From Utricularia gibba (lineage: Eukaryota; Streptophyta; Magnoliopsida; Lamiales; Lentibulariaceae): a stretch of DNA of 64,000 nucleotides. A model generated the notes under the pieces. It was not told the DNA's origin, did not search any database, and saw only the letters and a list, made by a program, of their open reading frames with translations. Location of the stretch: NCBI GenBank assembly GCA_002189035.1, contig NEEC01000004.1, positions 5,022,001-5,086,000 of the forward strand, read 5' to 3'. The stretch's first letter is position 1; every line of letters begins with the position of its first letter. Shown one piece after another: positions 1-64,000 of this stretch. Made by a program: the position numbers and the translations under genes.

Positions 1-3000
1 CAATCTTGAGCAGCAGGTGTTTGCTATTCAAAAACATGATAATGGGTCATTAATGCTTGTCAAAGTTACATATCTCGTGTGTTTTGGTGCCTCATGTTTT
101 GTTTTTGATGCTAGATGTATATACTGAGGAGGGTGTCTATGGTAGCCATACGTGCTGCCTTAAACCTTCAACATGGTGGCATGAAGGATTTTTACATCTG
201 TTCTCTGTCTTCAAGGTCCATTCTCAGTCGAAATTTGGAATTTGATGTGTTGTGAGAACATAAACTATAGTTTTGCCATTCTCTCTGCCTTTTTCAATAG
301 GACCATCGTCTATAAGGGTCAACTGAAGCCCGATCAGTTGAAGGAATACTATTATGCAGATCTTGGGAATGAAAGGTTCACAAGCTACATGGCCATGGTA
401 AATATTTTATCCATTCTCTGCTTTCTTTTCTGACTCCATGCCTTAACAACCAACAGTATTGGATCAACCGAGTAACTCAAGCGTTGCGGGGTTGGGGAAT
501 GACTTCTAAGGCGTAAGAATTATCTCTTAAGTTCTTCCGCACCCTTGATCAATATTTGATTTTGGATGCGTCGTTGGATTCATTGAATAAGTTGGCAAGG
601 CATCTCATCATGAAGCACCGAGTGTCTGCAGAATCCTGCCGTTGACCCTTAAAATCCACTTTAAGACTGAAAAATATGCATGGAGTAAGGGCTTCGCTTA
701 AAAAAGCTGCGTAGCTAGGTTCTGTGCATTCTGACTGCTGATGGCTATCATCATATCATTTCAAATGCTTTGCTTGGAGCATTTTATACTTTCCTTTCCC
801 TTTCTTTTTTCCCATGGCAGCGAAACTCTGAATACCATATCTTATTCAATCGTATGTTTGGCATCCATTGCCGTGGATTTTTGCTGCAGATACACTCCAG
901 GTTCTCGACAAACACGTTTCCTAGCTGGGATCGCGCTCAACCTATGCGTGTACTTGGGCACAATGGCGAGATAAACACGCTTCGGGGGAATGTAAATTGG
1001 TGAGGGACTAAGTCATGTTCGTATACTAGATACTCTTGCTTGGCTCACCTGAATTTCGTATTTGGAGCTGTTGGCTGATAGAATATAGTTGTCAGCTCAT
1101 TGAGCTGTTAAATTCTATTTAACATTACTTGATTTGTAGGATGAGGGCACGTGAGGGTCTTCTAAAATGCAAAGAGCTTGGCTTGTCAAATACTGAAATG
1201 AAAAAACTTCTACCAATCGTAGATGCCAGCTCATCTGATTCAGGTTCTCATCGTAACTGGTGCTGACTTATAATGGCCTTCCTTCAGTGATTTTGTCTGA
1301 TTTATTTAACTTTATAGGAGCATTTGATGGTGTACTCGAGCTTCTGGTTAGAAGTGGCAGAAGCCTCCCTGAGGCTATGATGATGATGATCCCTGAAGCT
1401 TGGCAAAATGATAAGAACATGGATCCCAGTCGGAAGGCTTTGTATGAATATTTTTCTGCTCTGATGGAGCCTTGGGATGGCCCTGCGCTCATATCATGTA
1501 TGTGCTCTCAGATAACGCATGTGGCTTTGATGATGCATTGGTTTCTCATGGATGAACTTGGCAGTTACTGATGGTCGTTACCTTGGAGCAACATTGGATC
1601 GGAATGGGCTTCGACCTGGTCGGTTTTATGTCACACATAGTGGGAGAGTTATCATGGCCAGTGAAGTTGGCGTGGTTGATATTCCGCCAGAAGATGTCTC
1701 CAGGAAGGGAAGGCTTAACCCTGGTATGATGCTTCTCGTGGACTTTGAGAAGCATATTGTGGTTGACGATGAAGCGCTGAAGCAACTATACTCGCTTGCA
1801 AGACCTTATGGCGAGTGGTTAAAGAAGCAGAAGCTGGAATTGAAAGATATTGTTGAATCTGTTCCAGAATCAGATAGGATTCCTCCTACGATTGCAGGGG
1901 TGCGTTGTACTTCCTCATTTCATGAGTCATCTTTCTTCCTTCATATAAGGATACCTCTCTAAATAATTTACAAAATTATAGGCATCTTCTGATGTTGAGA
2001 ATATGGAGAATGTAGGAATTCGTGGTCTGCTCTCACCACTAAAGGCCTTTGGGTATGTTTAGCAGCACTCTGTCTCATCCCTGATTCATTTGTTGTGAGT
2101 GCTGCACTGTGAATCTTTGATGTTCTTACCATTCGCAGTTATACTGTTGAATCACTGGAAATGCTGCTACTCCCCATGGCGAAAGATGGCGTAGAGGCCC
2201 TGGGATCGATGGGAAATGATGCTCCTTTGGCAGTGATGTCCGACCGGGAGAAACTGACTTTCGAATATTTCAAGCAGATGTTTGCTCAGGTCACAAATCC
2301 TCCAATTGATCCTATTCGAGAAAAAATAGTTACCTCCATGGAATGCATGGTTGGCCCAGAAGGTGATCTGACAGAGACTACAGAAGAGCAGTGTCGTCGC
2401 CTCTCGCTTAAGGGGCCTCTTCTATCAGTTGAAGAGATGGAAGCCATAAAGAAAATGGATTATAGAGGTTGGAGAAGCAAAGTTCTGGATATCACCTACT
2501 CCAAAGAGAAGGGAAGCAAGGGATTGGAAGAGACTCTAGACAGAATTTGTGCTGAAGCACATGATGCCATCCAGGAAGGTTATACAGCTATTGTGCTGTC
2601 TGACAGAGGTACACAATTTTGTTTTCAGCATTCTGGTTTATATTCTGGATGCATAAAGGTAATCCCTCTTGACCATGCAGCTTTCTCCCCCAAACGTGTT
2701 CCGACAAGTTCTCTTTTGGCTGTTGGTGCGGTTCATCATCATCTGGTGAAGAAGCTTGAGCGAACTCGTGTTGCTTTGATTGTGGACTCAGCTGAGCCCA
2801 GAGAAGTGCACCATTTTTGTACACTTGTAGGATTTGGCGCGGATGCAATTTGTCCTTACCTTGCTATAGAAGCCATCTGGAGATTGCAAGTTGATGGAAA
2901 GATTTCACCAAAAGGAGTTGATGAATTCTACTCAAAGGATGAGCTCACTCAGAGATATTTTAAAGCTACTAATTATGGTATGATGAAGGTCCTTGCGAAA

Positions 3001-63570: not shown

Positions 63571-64000
63571 AAGAAACTACTACTAGTTGGTTGCGGTTTT
63601 TCCTGGTATCCATTTGCCTTTTTGCTCTTCCAAACAATTAAAATACTTTCTTATTTTAATTATAAATTAAAATTAAAGAATAAATTCGACACAAAAGTGA
63701 TTCATTCCCGTGTACTTCAACTCAATTTTCAAGTATGATTTTGGGTTGAATTTTTTAATTAGATTCAAATTAATGTAAAAATATAACGAAAATAAAAACA
63801 ATTATTTATATTTAATATTTCAAAATTTCAACAAAATATTTTTTTATATCAAAATAATTGAATCGAATCTAAAAAAAAAAATCATGAGTTCGTATTCAAC
63901 TGAATCTAATCTCGAATTCATCCCCGAATTTTAAAACAATGTTTTGATCGATATGAAACCAAGCCCCTACCCAATTCCGTTCCAAATTGCATTAAAACAT
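63571..64000. other. AT-rich intergenic to window end
   Basis: No coding signal seen; AT-rich throughout, cut by the window edge. Confidence 0.5.

Follow-up and report, generated by a model that had tools for sequence, protein, structure and literature searches.

When several conserved genes in one stretch of plant nuclear DNA lose their reading frame by the same single base, the question arises of whether these genes are dying in the plant or whether the sequence itself is at fault. The stretch analysed here (64,000 nucleotides, hereafter the window) raises it acutely: the original prediction named eight such losses, suspected two more near 58160 and 58205, and attributed their uniform direction to long-read assembly indels left uncorrected. 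Three-frame reading of each site found the sequence to be one base short, with the conserved frame then resuming, at all eight positions (5850, 17274, 20882, 20917, 28514 on the minus strand, 34773, 35186 and 41965), and a frame-aware aligner called the same -1 event once in GLT1, twice in WSD copy C, and once each in WSD copy F, a relic at 17.27 kb and PBD.

GLT1 (NADH-glutamate synthase), of which the portion inside the window spans 115-8077 on the plus strand, was traced in a DP alignment with the bacterial gltB and gltD genes through 1,801 codons (1,335 against gltB and 466 against gltD) and 15 GT-AG introns, with no stop and a single break, located at a C run at 5850-5856 (plus strand) and recovered both by three-frame reading and by alignment to four bacterial gltB references; in a single-copy check, this gene was the only NADH-type copy found. 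Another call in GLT1, a +1 at 1873, appeared with only one of the four references and was rejected. The proteasome beta subunit gene PBD loses its base at 41959-41966 (plus strand), as seen by three-frame reading, by the aligner and by comparison with a duplicate on contig C4, which is intact and in which the residues flanking the position of the break are identical on both sides. Two losses in ING2 (plus strand), one between the ING and PHD domains (34770-34791) and one at the end of the PHD finger (35180-35192), were assessed from the reading frame and from family membership (ING and PHD domains). In the TIME FOR COFFEE-like (TIC-like) gene on the minus strand the frames at 58150-58215 differ by two one-base losses, and two paralogues (C413:4561368-4561838 and C4:390227-390745) keep a single open frame across the stretch in which the window copy shifts twice, which bears out the two losses that had been suspected there.

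The remaining sites belong to a set of tandemly arranged WSD-type wax ester synthase genes at 11161-29074, in which copies A and E are intact and copies C and F are frame-broken. Copy E (23689-25691, plus strand, seven exons) served as the reference, and copy A (11161-13446, plus strand) aligned to it with zero losses. Copy C (gene at 20111-22342, plus strand) carries a first loss at 20882-20887 and a second at 20911-20920, and copy F, which lies on the minus strand and is more divergent, carries one at 28510-28518, all three being found by three-frame reading and by the aligner. Two solo WSD last exons without a remaining gene also lie inside the array, at 16430-17360, the first one in frame. 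The loss at 17274 (17270-17276, plus strand, found by the same two methods) falls in a solo last exon of this kind (approximately 17198-17360) with no gene surrounding it, and it may represent true decay, for which reason it was excluded from the sign counts. The attribution of the losses to assembly indels is supported for nine sites, while 17274 lies in a WSD relic that is possibly dead. Those nine window sites sit in genes without any other lesion.

The single sign of the losses could have been produced by the method itself. The protein-to-DNA aligner, which was our own, penalises gains and losses equally and allows GT-AG introns, and in a control with planted indels it recovered 40 of 40 losses and 40 of 40 gains; the single sign is therefore not a method bias. 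Several calls were set aside: a +1 in a chloroplast-type HSP70 on contig C2 was discarded because it lies at an intron acceptor, early +1 calls in BiP could be traced to an intron retained in the reference and disappeared once a spliced reference was used, a -1 at an intron edge in a GRP94 gene on C3 was left uncounted, and so was a BAHD pair on C411 differing by +1, which is possibly explained by an intron.

The same defect was then sought elsewhere in the assembly (516 contigs totalling 100.09 Mb, of which the largest seen has 8.5 Mb and another 6.82 Mb) through a genome-wide survey of conserved families, namely HSP70, HSP90, proteasome, BAHD, UDP-glycosyltransferase and P450. Five of these families yielded 24 further one-base losses outside the window and no clear gains: 10 losses in 9,455 codons of HSP70, four in 5,842 codons of HSP90, two in alpha-type proteasome subunits, and, as adjacent matches in differing frames, six in BAHD transferases and two in UDP-glycosyltransferases, these last eight being judged from coordinates only and hence one base modulo three. 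The P450 table, examined by a coarse method, contained no unambiguous frame-loss pair, which counts against consensus error. Taken together, all 33 losses (nine in the window, with 17274 omitted, and 24 of 24 elsewhere) have the same sign, an outcome with a probability of 1.2e-10 if gains and losses were equally frequent and of 1.5e-6 if a 2:1 deletion bias is assumed. One-base indels of a single predominant sign, found assembly-wide, are what uncorrected long-read consensus indels would be expected to leave.

Pooling HSP70 and HSP90 gives a rate of one loss in every 3.3 kb of coding DNA; over all families outside the window, of which two were examined by a less sensitive method, the figure is one in 4.5 kb. 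In the window, 11.9 kb of coding DNA checked in a comparable way contain seven events where 3.6 would be expected (P = 0.08), so that the window is not clearly worse than the remaining assembly.

The context of the losses was assessed at the 23 sites for which sequence was available (the 17274 relic and 22 others) by determining which single inserted base best restores the match to a paralogue, and was compared with a null of 600 random deletions in intact genes; the comparison is approximate, since the null used the gene's own protein and the real sites a paralogue's. Measured in this way, the losses are concentrated in homopolymers, with runs of at least four bases fitting 15 of 23 sites as compared with 10% of the null deletions (p = 4e-10), and G or C runs fitting 17 of 23 against 23% (p = 4e-7). 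T runs fit two of the 23 sites, and four of the 23 match no run given the paralogue residue, which counts against consensus error. The losses had been placed mostly in C or A homopolymers of 3 to 5 bases; short runs are indeed involved, but they are chiefly of C or G (17/23).

The most serious alternative is that the genes are truly dead, a shrinking genome shedding copies by small deletions after whole-genome duplication. Genome reduction is a known trait of U. gibba, both PBD and the TIC-like gene do have duplicates, and 17274 lies in a relic. In truly dead genes one would expect stops, indels of mixed size and a relaxation of selection. In-frame stops were absent from approximately 15,300 codons of HSP70 and HSP90 and from the approximately 3,700 codons over which window genes were aligned, and, with the exception of the 17274 relic, the aligned broken copies showed no stops, mixed indel sizes or lost splice sites. 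Comparison of broken housekeeping copies with intact paralogues gave dN/dS values of 0.008-0.049 for pairs unsaturated at synonymous sites, several other pairs being saturated; the values for two intact pairs were 0.013 and 0.014, and those for WSD copy C were 0.167-0.234, an intact pair giving 0.166 in comparison. By this measure, relaxed selection is absent from the broken copies, which are still under strong purifying selection; otherwise intact, selected genes are what uncorrected consensus indels would affect. It also speaks against true death that no NADH-type copy other than the broken GLT1 was found, that the broken genes have intact splice sites and neither an in-frame stop nor an indel of another size, and that real deletions would not all be single bases in short C/G runs. 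We consider true death of these genes very unlikely.

Still less credible is that the plant line truly has recent one-base homopolymer losses, e.g., a clonal line with defective mismatch repair. Slippage would give such a sign, size and homopolymer context, but the runs are only 3 to 6 bases long with C/G preferred, HSP90, proteasome and GLT1 genes are affected without a trace of relaxed selection, and a line with approximately one third of its genes broken would hardly survive. Thousands of real recent one-base losses in short homopolymers of conserved genes, with function rescued at the RNA or ribosome level, appear just as improbable. Programmed frameshifting, in which ribosomes switch frame at the sites, is conceivable as slippage at some of those in runs but has next to no probability, as the paralogues (PBD, TIC-like, HSP70, HSP90 and alpha-type proteasome) are unshifted, so that the sites are not conserved, and no motif or gene position is shared.

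We therefore return to consensus error: judged from the sequence, the frame losses are very probably errors of a long-read assembly in the form of residual indels that accurate reads did not correct, because the same flaw occurs throughout the assembly in otherwise healthy-looking genes. The original prediction, which read the uniform direction in this way, gains support from losses that are assembly-wide, of one sign and size, and placed in short homopolymers of otherwise healthy, selected genes. Consensus calling would shorten homopolymers, mostly of C or G and approximately 3 to 6 bases long, by one base, leaving approximately one such loss in every 3.3 kb of coding sequence assembly-wide, so that a gene of ordinary length would have approximately one-in-three odds of a false frameshift (by a simple Poisson estimate, approximately 31% of 1.2 kb coding sequences). 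The reads themselves would be expected to carry the missing base. What is described here is thus almost certainly an artefact of a known kind and no real biological feature, and its value lies in a warning on gene-loss claims: a gene that is called lost, truncated or a pseudogene from this assembly requires read-level checks.

Contig C241 (31 kb) is 99.5-99.8% identical to C304:2234323-2246278 and is either a redundant contig or a haplotype. When the two were compared as two assemblies of one DNA, both carried the same HSP70 loss, which counts against consensus error; this loss may be real, or both contigs may have been built from the same reads. Another likely redundant contig is the small C376, in which 22117-22695 gave P450 matches equal in score to those of C413:5405973-5406551. 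Four contigs, C1 (8,500,000), C2 (6,192,500), C409 (2,492,500) and C505 (3,452,500), have lengths exactly divisible by 2,500, perhaps because their ends were cut at consensus-window borders.

One published truncation could be examined directly. The DCL3 of U. gibba has been described as lacking the helicase and dimerisation domains (PMC8333044). In agreement with the published pattern of four DCL genes, RNase III domains were found, by position, at four DCL loci and Dicer_dimer at three only. At the fourth, a DCL3-like gene on C213 (2756301-2762200), there are PAZ and RNase III exons but the upstream helicase and dimerisation domains are absent, no helicase being found in the frames examined over the 4.4 kb that precede the PAZ exon; a gene for an SR-type splicing factor lies upstream on the opposite strand. 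Because the domains are missing from every upstream frame examined, a one-base artefact was ruled out as the origin of the truncation, and the missing DCL3 helicase reported earlier (PMC8333044) looks sound here.

As to its origin, the sequence very likely belongs to Utricularia gibba, to which the DCL3 without a helicase points, and probably comes from the PacBio HGAP/Quiver assembly made for this species. The published U. gibba PacBio assembly was made with HGAP, is of the 100 Mb class and includes a Unitig_8 of 6.8 Mb, but consists of 581 contigs as opposed to 516 here (PMC5793159, PMC8333044). An HGAP/Quiver assembly of P. falciparum contained 25,352 indels in approximately 23.5 Mb, or about one per kb, prior to short-read correction (PMC5964635), and the rate observed here is therefore within the known range. 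In that uncorrected assembly indels also greatly outnumbered substitutions (25,352 versus 1,798) and produced apparent frameshifts in real genes, although they fell mostly in long A/T runs of an AT-rich genome (PMC5964635), whereas those described here are in short, mostly C/G runs and were observed in coding sequence only. The long-read drafts examined with Kastor are of small genomes with bacterial examples, and in them A/T runs were affected approximately twice as often as G/C runs, a preference that, set against the C/G runs here, counts against consensus error (PMC12007338). These drafts nevertheless resemble the present case in their homopolymer-tied deletions, which fragment genes and are most frequent in runs of four to five bases; these deletions inflated the proportion of annotated pseudogenes, which was 23.3% before correction and 5.6% after it (PMC12007338).
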